From positions 3,317,001 through 3,381,000 of the forward strand of contig NZ_CP019511.1 in assembly GCF_002002925.1 (NCBI RefSeq): a stretch of 64,000 nucleotides of DNA, written 5' to 3'. This document shows positions 1,578 to 49,487 of this stretch, in pieces. The position numbers and the translations under genes are program-made. The notes under the pieces were generated by a model that did no database searches, was not told the origin of the DNA, and saw nothing but the letters and a program-made list of their open reading frames with translations. Origin of the DNA: Sphingomonas sp. LM7. GTDB taxonomy: Bacteria > Pseudomonadota > Alphaproteobacteria > Sphingomonadales > Sphingomonadaceae. Position 1 is the first letter of the stretch, and each line of letters starts with the position of its first letter.

Positions 1578-3612
<2,035 letters not shown>

Positions 3613-3650
3613 GCACGCGGTCTTAGGCCGATGGGGGCGGGAGGGGAAAC

Positions 3651-3685
3651 GAAAAAGGGCGCCAGCCTGACGGCGGACGCCCTTT
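3651..3685 (-). terminator. Rho-independent terminator of the small lipoprotein gene
   Basis: On the minus strand AAAGGGCG pairs with CGCCCTTT and runs into TTTC, 18 bases after the stop at 3703. It has the stem and T-run of an intrinsic terminator. Confidence 0.75.
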
Positions 3686-3702
3686 CGTGCCTTGCCGGCG
3701 GA

Positions 3703-3990
3703 TTACATATGGTTGGCGGCCTGTTGCTCGACGCGGGCATCGTCGTCGTCATCGGCCTTGTCGGCCATCGCCTCGCCGCGGTCCTCGACATTGTCGGCCT
3801 GGGCTTCGAGCGAATCGTGGAGCTGGTCGTTGCCGGCGGCGGCGGCCGCATCGGCCTGATTCTCGAGCATGTCCGACTGGTTCTCGGCCATGGCCTCGAT
3901 ATTGTCGGCGGCCCGATCGTCGGCATTCTGGCCGCAGGCGCCGAGCGCGAACAGGCCGGCAACCGCAGTCGCCTTGAGCAGAATCTTCAT
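3703..3990 (-). CDS. Small acidic lipoprotein, hypothetical
   Basis: A 95-residue product that starts at the ATG at 3990, eight bases after AGGGG. Residues 1-17 are a lipoprotein signal peptide with lipobox LGAC (MKILLKATAVAGLFALGAC), so the mature protein should be lipid-anchored. The rest is hydrophilic, rich in Ala, Asp, Asn, Glu and Gln, with repeated short units of the type D-x-x-x-x-QAD-x-x-ED, and is likely helical. It resembles the short low-complexity lipoproteins common in sphingomonads. The function is unknown. A good terminator follows it. Confidence 0.7.
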   Translation of the reverse strand: MKILLKATAVAGLFALGACGQNADDRAADNIEAMAENQSDMLENQADAAAAAGNDQLHDSLEAQADNVEDRGEAMADKADDDDDARVEQQAANHM

Positions 3991-4094
3991 GGGCATCCCC
4001 TTATGGTTTCGCGGACCTGCCTGGCAGGCCTCGCGCACCAATCGCCGAAACCGCGCGGGGTTCCGGATGCAGGGCCGGGGCGGCCCTGCAGACC

Positions 4095-4262
4095 TTACTT
4101 GATCTTGGCTTCCTTGAACTCGACATGCTTGCGCACGACGGGATCATATTTGCGGAAGGAGAACTTCTCGGTCTGCGTGCGCGGATTCTTCTTCGTGACG
4201 TAGAAGAAACCCGTGTCCGCCGTGCTGACGAGCTTGATCTTGACAGTGGTCGGCTTAGCCAT
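4095..4262 (-). CDS. rpmG: 50S ribosomal protein L33
   Basis: A 55-residue protein starting [20 protein letters not shown], with [24 protein letters not shown] typical of L33. It lacks the CxxC pairs of the zinc-binding form, so it is the zinc-independent type. I chose the start at 4262 over an in-frame ATG 14 codons upstream because L33 begins at this point in other bacteria. It stands alone, with no other ribosomal gene nearby. Confidence 0.96.
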
Positions 4263-46180: not shown

Positions 46181-46188
46181 CAGATTGT
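46181..46188 (+). repeat. Target site duplication, left (CAGATTGT)
   Basis: The eight bases just outside the left inverted repeat read CAGATTGT and recur exactly at 49480-49487 just outside the right one. Eight-base duplications are usual for IS1595-family insertion. Confidence 0.95.
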
Positions 46189-46207
46189 GGCGATTATATA
46201 CGTGACA
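46189..46207 (+). repeat. Left terminal inverted repeat of the transposon
   Basis: GGCGATTATATACGTGACA matches the reverse complement of 49461-49479 except for two bases. Its outer edge meets the CAGATTGT duplication directly. Confidence 0.95.
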
Positions 46208-46237
46208 AATCAGCCGTGATGCGGGCATATAATCCGC

Positions 46238-47197
46238 ATGACGAACCTTACTGCACCCCGCTTCACCGACGAGACCGCAGCCCGCGAGCATCTTGAAGCT
46301 CTGCGCTGGCCGGAAGGTCCGTTCTGCCCGCACTGTGGTTCGTTCAATGCGGCACGGCTTCCTGCGCAGCGTGGCCGTCCGACCAAGGCGCACCCTGATG
46401 GCGCGATCCGCGCTGGCGTTGTCCAGTGCCGCGATTGCCGCAAGCAGTACTCTGTGACGGTCGGCACGGTGTTCGAAGGCAGCAAGGTCCCGCTCAACAA
46501 GTGGCTGCTCGCCAACTACCTGCTTGTGTCCAGCAAGAAGGGCATGAGCGTCCACCAGCTGCACCGCATGCTCGGCGTCACCTACAAGACCGCATGGTTC
46601 ATGTTCCACCGCATCCGTGAGGCAATGCGCGAAGAGGGCGGCGACAAGTTCGGCGGCGGTGGCGGCATTGTCGAGATTGACGAGACGTACATCGGCCGCG
46701 ACCGCACGAAGGAACAGAAGGCCGGTGGCGCCTCGCACAAGATGAAGGTTTTGACCCTCGTTGACCGCGAGACGGGTCGCGCTCGCTCGCTCCGCTTCGA
46801 GAACTTCCGCAAGGAGGAAATCGGCATGATCGTCCGTCACAACGTGGCGCACGAAGCCGTCCTGATGACCGACGAAGCGAACCTGTATCGCGGCCTGTCC
46901 AAGATGCATGCCGGTCACAAGGTCGTCACCCACGGCAAGGGTGAGTACGTCAACAAGGACGACGCCACGACCCATACGAACACGATCGAAGGCTTCTTTT
47001 CGATCTTCAAGCGCGGGATGATCGGTGTGTACCAGCACTGCGGCAAGCAGCACCTGAACCGCTACCTTGCCGAGTTCGATTTCCGTTATTCGAACCGCGC
47101 CGCAAATGGCGTTGACGATGCCGCCCGCGCCGATCTGGCCCTCAAAGGCATCGCTGGCCGTCGCCTGTTCTATCGGCGGCCTAGCTTCGCAGCCTAA
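46238..47197 (+). CDS. IS1595 family (ISXO2-like) transposase
   Basis: A 319-residue transposase. A zinc-ribbon-like N terminus (FCPHCGS and CRDCRKQYS) is followed by the ISXO2-like DDE core: VEIDETYIGRD (first Asp), VLMTDEANLYRG (second Asp) and HTNTIEGFFSIFKRGMIGVYQHCGKQHLNRYLAEFDFRYSNR (Asn/His and later catalytic residues). The frame is intact. The start has a weak ribosome site. It is the only transposase in the element and should act on the 19-bp ends. Confidence 0.95.
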   Translation: MTNLTAPRFTDETAAREHLEALRWPEGPFCPHCGSFNAARLPAQRGRPTKAHPDGAIRAGVVQCRDCRKQYSVTVGTVFEGSKVPLNKWLLANYLLVSSKKGMSVHQLHRMLGVTYKTAWFMFHRIREAMREEGGDKFGGGGGIVEIDETYIGRDRTKEQKAGGASHKMKVLTLVDRETGRARSLRFENFRKEEIGMIVRHNVAHEAVLMTDEANLYRGLSKMHAGHKVVTHGKGEYVNKDDATTHTNTIEGFFSIFKRGMIGVYQHCGKQHLNRYLAEFDFRYSNRAANGVDDAARADLALKGIAGRRLFYRRPSFAA

Positions 47198-47405
47198 GCT
47201 GCCCGCGCTTGGTCGCAGGCGCAGAATTCCGAGGAGGCGCGAGGATTAGGTGTCGCGCAAGTGGGCGGGGTACTGGCAGCGATAAAGTGCCGCCCACAGC
47301 ATCGATCAAATGATCAATCCGACGCCGAATCAAACCGGAACACGGGCTCTTGAATCGCGTTGATCAATCACGATATTCGCAAAACGCAAAATTCAACGGG
47401 TGTGT

Positions 47406-47434
47406 CAAACGATATCCACACTGGATATCGTTTG
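47406..47434 (+). repeat. 12-bp perfect palindrome with 5-base spacer
   Basis: CAAACGATATCC (47406-47417) and GGATATCGTTTG (47423-47434) are exact inverted copies. It could be an operator for a dimeric regulator or a recombination site. It lies 209 bases after the transposase stop. Confidence 0.8.
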
Positions 47435-47635
47435 GAGAACCGGTTTGCAAGTGGTAGAAGGCGCGGACGCCGGGGTTGACATCGTCGTCAACGGCGGTTC
47501 ACCCAGTAAGAAATGTTAACCCGCTTCTGAGAAGTAGACGGTGAATTGTGTAATACCCGGGTCCGGGAGGGCCGCTACGGCTAGCAGACGCTTTCTTCAA
47601 CGGAGATCGCGGCGCGGCTGCCAGGGGCGAAATTC

Positions 47636-47654
47636 AGGAGGGACACACCCTCCT
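47636..47654 (+). repeat. Hairpin enclosing a ribosome-site-like AGGAGGG
   Basis: AGGAGGG-ACACA-CCCTCCT forms a perfect 7-bp stem with a 5-base loop. The Shine-Dalgarno-like strand would be hidden. No good start codon follows within 15 bases, so the role is unclear. Confidence 0.6.
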
Positions 47655-47769
47655 AAAGCAATCAGGGCTAGCAGAGGGCTAGCTCGTTCTGAGCGGCTTA
47701 TGCCGACGAGACGCTCAGGAATCGCAGGGTCGGCCGCAATGCCCCATGGGCAGGCAGGAAGGTGTTTTA

Positions 47770-47979
47770 GTGAATAACGCCATCGAACGCGCCGCTGATC
47801 TGTTGTTCGGCGACGCCGGACGCAGCGTGGTTAACGTGCGTTTTCTGTGCGGCGGCCAAGACAATGTCTCTGCCGAGCGATTGGCAGAGCAAATCGTTTT
47901 GTCCGAAGCTCAGATTCGCGGTGAGCAAGCGCGCCGGATTACGAATGTGGACGAATATTTGACGTCTATCGCATCGTAA
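47770..47979 (+). CDS. Transposon passenger gene 1, small hypothetical protein
   Basis: A 69-residue protein from a GTG at 47770, preceded by GGAAGG at seven bases. It is mixed polar and hydrophobic, with no signal peptide or membrane segment, and ends TNVDEYLTSIAS. I do not recognise a family. Its position just before a larger gene, separated by a 24-28 base hairpin, is like that of small regulators or antitoxins, but that is only inference from layout. The long structured leader upstream may control it. Confidence 0.5.
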   Translation: MNNAIERAADLLFGDAGRSVVNVRFLCGGQDNVSAERLAEQIVLSEAQIRGEQARRITNVDEYLTSIAS

Positions 47980-47983
47980 GTTA

Positions 47984-48011
47984 GCGAGTGCCCCATAATT
48001 GGGGCACTCGC
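47984..48011 (+). terminator. Perfect 11-bp hairpin between passenger genes 1 and 2
   Basis: GCGAGTGCCCC and GGGGCACTCGC pair exactly around ATAATT and end directly before the ATG of the next gene. It lacks a T-run. It may terminate, attenuate, or act as an operator, and it leaves no room for a ribosome site for that ATG. Confidence 0.55.
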
Positions 48012-48608
48012 ATGAACTTCAAAGAACTATACAAAATTGCAGAGGATGCCGTCGCTTCGAAGAGTGTTCCGAAGCCGGTTACTTTTGAGTTCCTGCGAGA
48101 ACATATCACGCAGGACAAATCCCTCATCGAACAGTTAGATGTCTGGCGGGTGGTTTATCAACCGCCCATCGAAGAGGCGCGCTTTACCCTATTCGATGAG
48201 CGTGAAAGCCTCCACGATGAACCAGTATATTATGCTGAAGTTTCGTTCTGTGCGTCTTTGGAGAGCAATCCTCCGCACTTGCTATACGCACTGATCAAAG
48301 AACTGATGCACGTGTTTGACCCAATGGAAACATGGATCAATACGCGAGAAAAATTCATTCAGTTCCTCAAGGATCTCCAAAATACTCCACTGGAAATGGC
48401 GAACGGCTCAATCGAAGTGGAGCATAAGGCCAAGTGGATGGCAATTTTGGCTCTGTGCCCCCAAACCTTGCGCACCCATATTGTCACATCCGTGAACAAG
48501 AAAGGTGTTTTGAAAGAAGAGATAGCTCAAGAGCTTGGGCTTCCTCGATTGGTGATCGAGATCGCACTGGACGACTATTACGAGAAGGCTTTAGCGCTTC
48601 TCACTTAG
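48012..48608 (+). CDS. Transposon passenger gene 2, hypothetical protein
   Basis: A 198-residue, lower-GC gene with no signal peptide or membrane segment. The N terminus (MNFKELYKIAEDAVASKSVPKPVTFEFLREHITQD) and middle are mixed alpha/beta, and the C terminus (NKKGVLKEEIAQELGLPRLVIEIALDDYYEKALALLT) looks helical and could form a helix-turn-helix-like unit. I do not recognise a family. The ATG at 48012 abuts a hairpin with no ribosome site; an in-frame GTG at 47988 lies inside that hairpin and is the only other option. Confidence 0.6.
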   Translation: MNFKELYKIAEDAVASKSVPKPVTFEFLREHITQDKSLIEQLDVWRVVYQPPIEEARFTLFDERESLHDEPVYYAEVSFCASLESNPPHLLYALIKELMHVFDPMETWINTREKFIQFLKDLQNTPLEMANGSIEVEHKAKWMAILALCPQTLRTHIVTSVNKKGVLKEEIAQELGLPRLVIEIALDDYYEKALALLT

Positions 48609-48782
48609 GCGTTTGTGGATATCAGACCTGCCGCACAATCTCCCACTGTAAGCTAGCGCGGGGCTGCGTCACCCTCGTCTGGTTTCCGCGGTCGTCCCCG
48701 CCGCCGCTCTCCCGTTGACTCTGGTAGCGGTTCGTGCGGCTTTGGCGGGGTACTCAGCATCCTGCGGAGTACGTCATCTTCG

Positions 48783-49322
48783 GTGGGGGTGCTTCTGTCC
48801 ACGTTCGATCCTCATGATGAAGACATGTTGCGCGGCTACTGGCAGGCGCTTGGTCGATTCGTCTTCTACTACGCCTACCTCGAAGACGCGATGCAGCAAA
48901 CGCTACGTCGGGTAACTCGCACCCCACCTGCGGTCGGCAAGGCGATTTTTTCCGGTGTCCGAGTTTCGCAAGCGATCTCGAATATCCGTCGCACGTACGA
49001 GGCCAGAGGTGAGGCGGTGCCGGCCTTCCTTGAGGAGACGATGCAGAAGGCTGGTGCCATCAATTCTGAACGCGACCGCATACTACATCACGGCATATAC
49101 TTCCGCGCCTGGGACGAGGGCATCGTTACTGATCAAGCTCGCCAGCTTGATCGGAAGGTCCGCACCACACAGATAACGGTTCCGCTTCTGGATGATTTGA
49201 ACTGGGACACCATGGTGGTCTGGTCACGGCTGGTGGTGTTTAACCGGACCCTATCGCGAAAGATAGCAGCATCCGAATCAGGCCGAGTGGGAAAGCGCTG
49301 CGCAAAGGCCATGGCGCTATAA
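48783..49322 (+). CDS. Transposon passenger gene 3, hypothetical protein
   Basis: A 179-residue protein from a GTG at 48783; an internal ATG is at about residue 15. The first half (YWQALGRFVFYYAYLEDAMQQTLRRV) and a middle helix (ERDRILHHGIYFRAW) give a helical pattern of a kind seen in small bacterial proteins of unknown role. It includes RILHHG, which recalls the short Rx4H-like motif of HEPN proteins only loosely. There is no signal peptide. It is separated from passenger gene 2 by 174 bp in which I see no gene. It ends about 140 bp inside the right end of the transposon. Confidence 0.55.
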   Translation: MGVLLSTFDPHDEDMLRGYWQALGRFVFYYAYLEDAMQQTLRRVTRTPPAVGKAIFSGVRVSQAISNIRRTYEARGEAVPAFLEETMQKAGAINSERDRILHHGIYFRAWDEGIVTDQARQLDRKVRTTQITVPLLDDLNWDTMVVWSRLVVFNRTLSRKIAASESGRVGKRCAKAMAL

Positions 49323-49460
49323 ACCGCCAAAACCACTTCCCGCTCCGGGCTCGACTCCCCGCACCAAGCAAGCGCAAGCTCGCCGGCGGAAACCATCTTC
49401 GGGGTAATCTCGATCTCAAACGCCAGCCTGTCGCATGCCGGTATAGCGGTTTCATGGCGC
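49323..49460 (+). other. Non-coding stretch before the right transposon end
   Basis: No gene is seen. A short run, GGCTCGACTCCCCGCACCA at 49348-49366, resembles the 3' end of a tRNA or tmRNA, but the acceptor and T-stem do not fold properly, so I do not call an attachment site. Confidence 0.4.
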
Positions 49461-49479
49461 TTTCATGTATATAATCGCC
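49461..49479 (-). repeat. Right terminal inverted repeat of the transposon
   Basis: Read on the minus strand it is GGCGATTATATACATGAAA, two differences from the left repeat. The duplicated CAGATTGT follows at 49480-49487. Confidence 0.95.
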
Positions 49480-49487
49480 CAGATTGT
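49480..49487 (+). repeat. Target site duplication, right (CAGATTGT)
   Basis: Exact copy of 46181-46188 directly outside the right inverted repeat. Confidence 0.95.

Follow-up and report, generated by a model that had tools for sequence, protein, structure and literature searches.

The inverted ends of IS1595-family transposons begin with GG, and ISNha5 represents a passenger-bearing group within the family. In the part of PMC8101967 used here, the usual content of the family is given as a single transposase gene, together with the family domains and an 8-bp target duplication, and ends beginning with GG are stated for the related Merlin elements. Passenger-bearing members such as MTnSag1 and tISCpe8, found in Streptococcus and Clostridium, are described in the consulted portion of PMC5704250 as mobilisable and as having 25-bp ends. 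For the Tn3 family, toxin-antitoxin (TA) pairs were recognised in 39 of 190 elements, with six antitoxin families, according to the sections of PMC7157771 used here. The element analysed in this work lies in the window, which is the 64,000-nucleotide stretch of Sphingomonas sp. LM7 at positions 3,317,001 to 3,381,000 of contig NZ_CP019511.1, and is a complete IS1595-family transposon at 46189-49479 of that stretch. The likely explanation is that it moved recently and that its clade, a cargo-bearing branch of IS1595, combines a core of two genes, the transposase gene and a small gene, with an exchangeable slot for toxin-like cargo. The architecture of the element, its mobility, the joint inheritance of transposase and small gene, and the exchange of cargo are established by sequence comparison.

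A clade of cargo-bearing IS1595-family elements

The transposase contains both the DDE_Tnp_IS1595 and the zinc-ribbon domains (Table 1), both ends of the element open with GGCGATTATATAC, and exact copies of the 8-bp sequence CAGATTGT flank it. The left end, GGCGATTATATACGTGACA, is identical at 17 of 19 positions to the right end read inward from 49479, GGCGATTATATACATGAAA. The first-pass annotation had described a complete cargo-bearing IS1595-family transposon with 19-bp inverted ends differing at two positions and an exact 8-bp duplication at 46181 and 49480, and this description is borne out by the domains, the ends, the duplication and the existence of cargo-bearing relatives. When pairs with GG/CC ends and an exact 8-bp repeat were sought between 45001 and 51000, the pair of the element matched at 17 of 20 positions and the runner-up at 10 of 20; a chance pairing is excluded because similar ends with 8-bp duplications recur at 48 of 80 related loci. 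The element is present as a single copy in its own genome, where no second copy was found. A second IS1595-type transposase of that genome, with a 388-residue frame, lies outside the window (G000 C1:2169268-2169690) and is not matched by the element's DNA.

The single-gene content was not found here, as the core adds a second conserved gene and cargo is also present. Since passenger-bearing members of the family are known, these additions mark a variant and do not exclude membership; the element is an IS1595-family member, namely a variant with a second core gene.

Scanning genome contigs with the transposase yielded 117 relatives. The best 80 were retained, and a locus was regarded as complete when inverted ends and an 8-bp duplication were found around it by script. 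Complete elements were obtained at 48 of these loci, with the duplication exact in 47 and carrying one mismatch in the other, and no such ends and duplication were found at the remaining 32. The 48 elements have a median length of 2608 bp (1881-4234), and in every one the right end lies 890-3228 bp beyond the transposase match; no bare, cargo-free element occurs among them. Six further complete elements, those of the window and of loci L022, L024, L025, L026 and L028, bring the total to 54. The window's element belongs to this large cargo-bearing IS1595 clade. The loci include two contigs of metagenome-assembled genomes, L040 (Acidimicrobiales) and L073 (Verrucomicrobia), which may be misbinned. 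At L030 and L031, transposase genes of another IS1595 clade have neighbours that appear, by eye, SocA/Panacea-like and XRE-like.

The mobility of the unit and the exchange of its cargo are seen in the comparison with L035 of Sphingomonas sp. 7/4-4, whose transposase is 96% identical. Because the L035 element is located at another site, with another duplication (ATAAAATT), the unit moves. The identity between the two elements is 93% in the left block (46188-47248), 91% in the small-gene block (48678-48783) and 83% in the right end, and no other plus-strand match was found. The alignment demonstrates that the cargo was replaced between core blocks that are otherwise 83-93% identical, and the identity of the left block ends exactly where a foreign transposase tail starts. 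The same ends around different cargo, which the first-pass annotation had proposed to look for, were found at other sites, both in L035 and in L022 (genome G054).

In the genome of a relative, G051, smc and the GT4 gene are adjacent, about 147 bp apart, and the element is absent, which supports the earlier placement of the insertion between these two genes. The empty site that was also to be sought is therefore present as an empty locus by synteny, although its intergenic letters do not align and it is not a letter-perfect match. A recent insertion is supported by this synteny together with the exact duplication.

The small second gene of the core

Three passenger genes had been listed at first; these open reading frames (ORFs) stand, but the count becomes four with a conserved minus-strand ORF that had been missed. 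As found in profile searches seeded from related loci, small proteins of two types, type A (QLDRFKEAARELETDDDEERFNEKLGKLVKQKP-like) and type B (EDDVLRRMLSTPPKPHEP-like), are encoded inside 52 of the 54 complete elements, and inside all 54 once a variant C is added. Variant C occurs in the complete elements L025 and L026 and also in L027 and L096, and L087 groups with it (type A only at E 0.001). Type A or B is also present at 25 of the 32 loci without recognised complete elements, and the sole type-A match at E ≤ 1 outside any element at the complete-element loci has a value of 0.69. At the other-clade IS1595 loci L030-L032, types A, B and C were all absent by profile search. Types A and B are probably related (hhalign 73%, E 3e-5). 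No convincing Pfam match was obtained for either type and no NCBIfam match for type B; the type-A profile has 509 homologues, and among the 120 matches listed the names say no more than 'hypothetical'.

In the window, the frame of the small gene extends to the CATG shared with the neighbouring gene but has a TGA at 48812-48814, so that the gene would either begin at GTG 48802 or be impaired. Relative to L035, it differs by 2, 0 and 8 changes at the three codon positions over 34 codons, and motifs are conserved across 29 type-B and 48 type-A sequences. The third-position bias, the conserved motifs and the presence in all 54 complete elements indicate selection on the small gene.

Inheritance was analysed on a tree of the 54 transposases, built by a quick method that left 18 of 51 inner branches open, with 200 label shuffles for comparison. 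The type of the small protein requires 2 changes on this tree, compared with a shuffled mean of 16.8 and minimum of 12, and the distances of the transposase and the small protein are correlated (r 0.77 for 35 type A and r 0.58 for 16 type B, p 0.001). In genomes not picked by their transposase, where PF12762 places were typed only if class genomes had small-protein matches, PF12762 was found within 4 kb of 41 of 58 small-protein matches and of 27 of 33 at E ≤ 1e-8; both samples include the window. The six strong misses consist of G012, which has an IS1595-like end and lies at the edge of its contig; G008 and G117, in which the small gene accompanies a HEPN-like gene and no transposase or recognisable ends were found; G143, in which no IS1595-like end was found; and G388 and G570. 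These comparisons demonstrate a common inheritance of the two core genes. At L034 (2208-2949) and L119 (1384-2217), a small gene and a HEPN-like gene stand together without transposase or recognisable ends, and each pair would be either a relic or a self-standing pair.

The small gene is also closely connected with its neighbours. In 11 of 16 complete type-B elements it lies head to head with a plus-strand gene, the starts overlapping in CATG, where the window is included through its interrupted frame and the starts of L035 and the window were placed by hand; in an earlier tally of 23 of 40, one place is represented more than once and at least two cases (L039, L123) are doubtful. Among type-A genes, 21 of 36 lie within −20 to +25 nt of where a preceding ORF on the same strand ends, four of these contacts being doubtful or made with the transposase itself. 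Variant C lies directly 3' of the transposase gene in L025, L026, L027, L087 and L096. It follows from these contacts that the cargo genes swap, yet the small gene mostly still touches a neighbour. The frequent abutment with cargo, together with the two pairs that persist without a transposase, would favour an explanation in which the small protein is an antitoxin or adaptor, the mobile unit is the pair of toxin and small protein, and carriage by IS1595 is incidental. We regard this explanation as unlikely, because the small-protein type tracks the transposase and, in type A, not the cargo class (r −0.15); in type B, the correlation with cargo class is weak (r 0.28, p 0.014). Furthermore, type A adjoins PIN, DUF3800, DUF1828, AlbA and, once, HEPN-like cargo, and the small gene directly follows the transposase in the five variant-C loci.

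Cargo of the clade and features of the window's element

Cargo ORFs were called by a greedy longest-ORF rule, the lists including some false ORFs. A Pfam scan of 121 cargo ORFs of complete elements gave PIN (11), DUF3800 (6), DUF1828 (5), SocA/Panacea (2) and Schlafen AlbA_2 (2), with single matches to M78, FRG, Cas2, GIY-YIG and others. Cargo classes were assigned partly by eye, in addition to the Pfam tallies and ten single scans, with HEPN-like called by motif; on this basis PIN, HEPN-like, DUF3800 or AlbA cargo is present in 35 of 54 elements, and 12 elements of the class 'other' are omitted from the cargo counts. In many type-B elements, the cargo includes a helical protein whose sequence is highly divergent apart from a motif of the R-N-x-x-x-H type. 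The R and H are invariant in 12 of 12 aligned HEPN-like rows, which were picked for the motif, and no HEPN family was matched in Pfam by seven other HEPN-like proteins (five from this alignment and two orphan). Small Cas2/SinR-like ORFs are recurrent extra cargo in L037, L048, L058, L072, L108 and L114, the likeness being judged by eye except for the one Pfam match to Cas2.

On the transposase tree, the cargo class of the 42 labelled rows requires 16 changes, compared with a shuffled mean of 23.0 (range 18-26). For the 28 rows of the A/C clade, 13 changes are required and the shuffled mean is 12.8 (range 10-14), i.e., no signal is present. This random distribution, and the fact that passenger-bearing IS1595 elements are already known in the consulted portion of PMC5704250, would agree with an ordinary passenger-carrying IS1595 element, whose small ORF is a neutral hitchhiker and whose cargo is a random accessory sample. 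Such an explanation is highly improbable in view of the selection indicated for the small gene and of the predicted RNase and defence-like families that are frequent in the cargo, a frequency counted without a matched background.

Table 1. Features of the element and its flanks in window coordinates.
Feature	Position	Strand	Evidence or remark
Target duplication, left copy CAGATTGT	46181..46188	.	exact repeat
Terminal inverted repeat, left	46189..46207	+	17/19 versus right end; similar ends in relatives
Inverted repeat ATGCGG...CCGCAT enclosing TATAAT, in gap from end to transposase start	46219..46239	.	kept in L022 and L035
IS1595 transposase, 319 aa	46238..47197	+	PF12762 5.2e-34; PF12760 4.6e-9; NF033547 2.6e-60
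Post-transposase core	47198..47248	+	final stretch of the left block (93% identity) common to L035
3' tail (VSRKWAGYWQR-stop) of a second kind of IS1595 transposase gene	47249..47285	+	L035 break point exactly at tail start
Palindrome AACGATATCCA/TGGATATCGTT, perfect 11-bp arms	47408..47432	.	in non-coding block
Decayed piece of GGLARS-type gene	about 47664..47738	+	gene of this type upstream of two-gene module in L141
Cargo ORF2, 69 aa, upstream partner of ORF3	47770..47979	+	67-69% identity in L141 and L142
Cargo ORF3, 198 aa, CapP/IrrE-like predicted fold	48012..48608	+	KELMH instead of HExxH
Small core protein, type B, 49 codons, from GTG	48653..48802	-	profile relatives; conserved in complete elements
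CATG, overlapping divergent starts of small gene (minus) and HEPN-like gene (plus)	48824..48827	.	as in 10/15 other complete type-B elements
Cargo ORF4, 165 aa, predicted HEPN fold, R-x4-H (RDRILH)	48825..49322	+	motif; model
Right-end core	49413..49479	+	83% identity to L035; final 19 bp = right inverted repeat
Target duplication, right copy	49480..49487	.	exact repeat

The passenger genes of the window had been called unknown, and two of them now have a predicted fold. HEPN proteins are characterised by the motif R-x4-6-H. ORF4, whose start is most likely ATG 48825 and not 48783, has this motif as RDRILH, and HEPN structures are the nearest to its predicted model (predicted local distance difference test, pLDDT, 75); no match was found in Pfam, NCBIfam or PADLOC. 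Unlike the HEPN proteins sacsin HEPN, AF_0298 and HepT, it has no match other than itself at E ≤ 1e-3 when 5.8 billion proteins are searched by a word-limited method, and its partner, the small gene, is placed head to head with it and matches no known antitoxin family.

ORF3 has 60 homologues, and its model, which is confident (pLDDT 91.5), has a predicted CapP/IrrE-like fold, that of the IrrE/ImmA M78 group; CapP is linked to the cyclic-oligonucleotide-based antiphage signalling system (CBASS). Unlike CapP and the IrrE/PprI metallopeptidases, ORF3 has K96-E97-L98-M99-H100 in place of HExxH, invariant in 61 of 61 sequences with the first His absent, and no Pfam match was found. The ORF2-ORF3 pair recurs beside an IS1-type transposase gene in L141 (1226-2982) and beside a phage-type integrase gene in L142 (317-2332), and more distantly in L143; with such neighbours in one genome and another, the module may also be mobile by other routes. 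It would be a second, separately acquired cargo, whose arrival probably coincided with, or followed, that of a fragment from another IS1595 element. The 570-bp block described earlier as non-coding is not featureless, since it contains core sequence, the foreign transposase tail, the palindrome and the decayed piece of a third module gene; no counterpart of the palindrome was found upstream of the module in L141-L143.

In relatives other than L022 and L035, different repeats occupy the place of the inverted repeat before the transposase start. In L082, L088, L095 and L039, an inverted repeat with GGAG or AAGG was noted by eye between the left end and the transposase start, as if concealing the ribosome site from read-through transcripts.

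Proposed roles and comparison with known systems

In the proposed mechanism, the DDE transposase would move the unit by its ends, and the cargo with the predicted HEPN fold would act as an RNase-type toxin or an abortive-infection protein that benefits the element or the host. The small protein may be a control protein encoded by the element, as a transposase partner, a cargo regulator or both, because its gene stays tied to a neighbour through the shared CATG, through tight coupling downstream of the cargo or, in one sub-clade, through its position behind the transposase. A broader form of this proposal, which we consider about evenly balanced, is a plug-in platform common to the whole clade. 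Its core would consist of the transposase together with a small protein that is obligatory and had no name before, and the small gene would be the docking point, by head-to-head CATG or tail coupling, for hypervariable, freely replaced toxins of the nuclease type (HEPN-like, PIN, DUF3800 and others). One protein would then serve transposition, the control of unlike toxins, or both. If so, elements filed as simple IS1595 would together deliver toxin- and defence-like genes widely among alphaproteobacteria, and their second core gene would be hidden in annotation as 'hypothetical'. The repeated exchange of cargo beside a constant gene makes it testable how small transposons acquire and tolerate toxins, and the small gene provides a handle for locating such elements and their cargo in any genome.

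The element resembles the IS1595 family, including MTnSag1 and tISCpe8, in the DDE_Tnp_IS1595 domain, the zinc ribbon and the 8-bp duplication, as far as these are given in the parts of the sources used. It differs from the single-gene IS1595 elements of PMC8101967, as described there in part, by the co-inherited small second gene and the exchangeable toxin-like slot. Compared with the TA passengers of Tn3 in the sections of PMC7157771 considered, the similarity is that the repeatedly acquired passengers, which occupy a constant position in the transposition module, include PIN and HEPN toxins. In contrast to Tn3 as described in those sections, all 48 of the 48 elements found by script carry cargo here, and one family of small proteins, outside the known classes, accompanies dissimilar cargoes.

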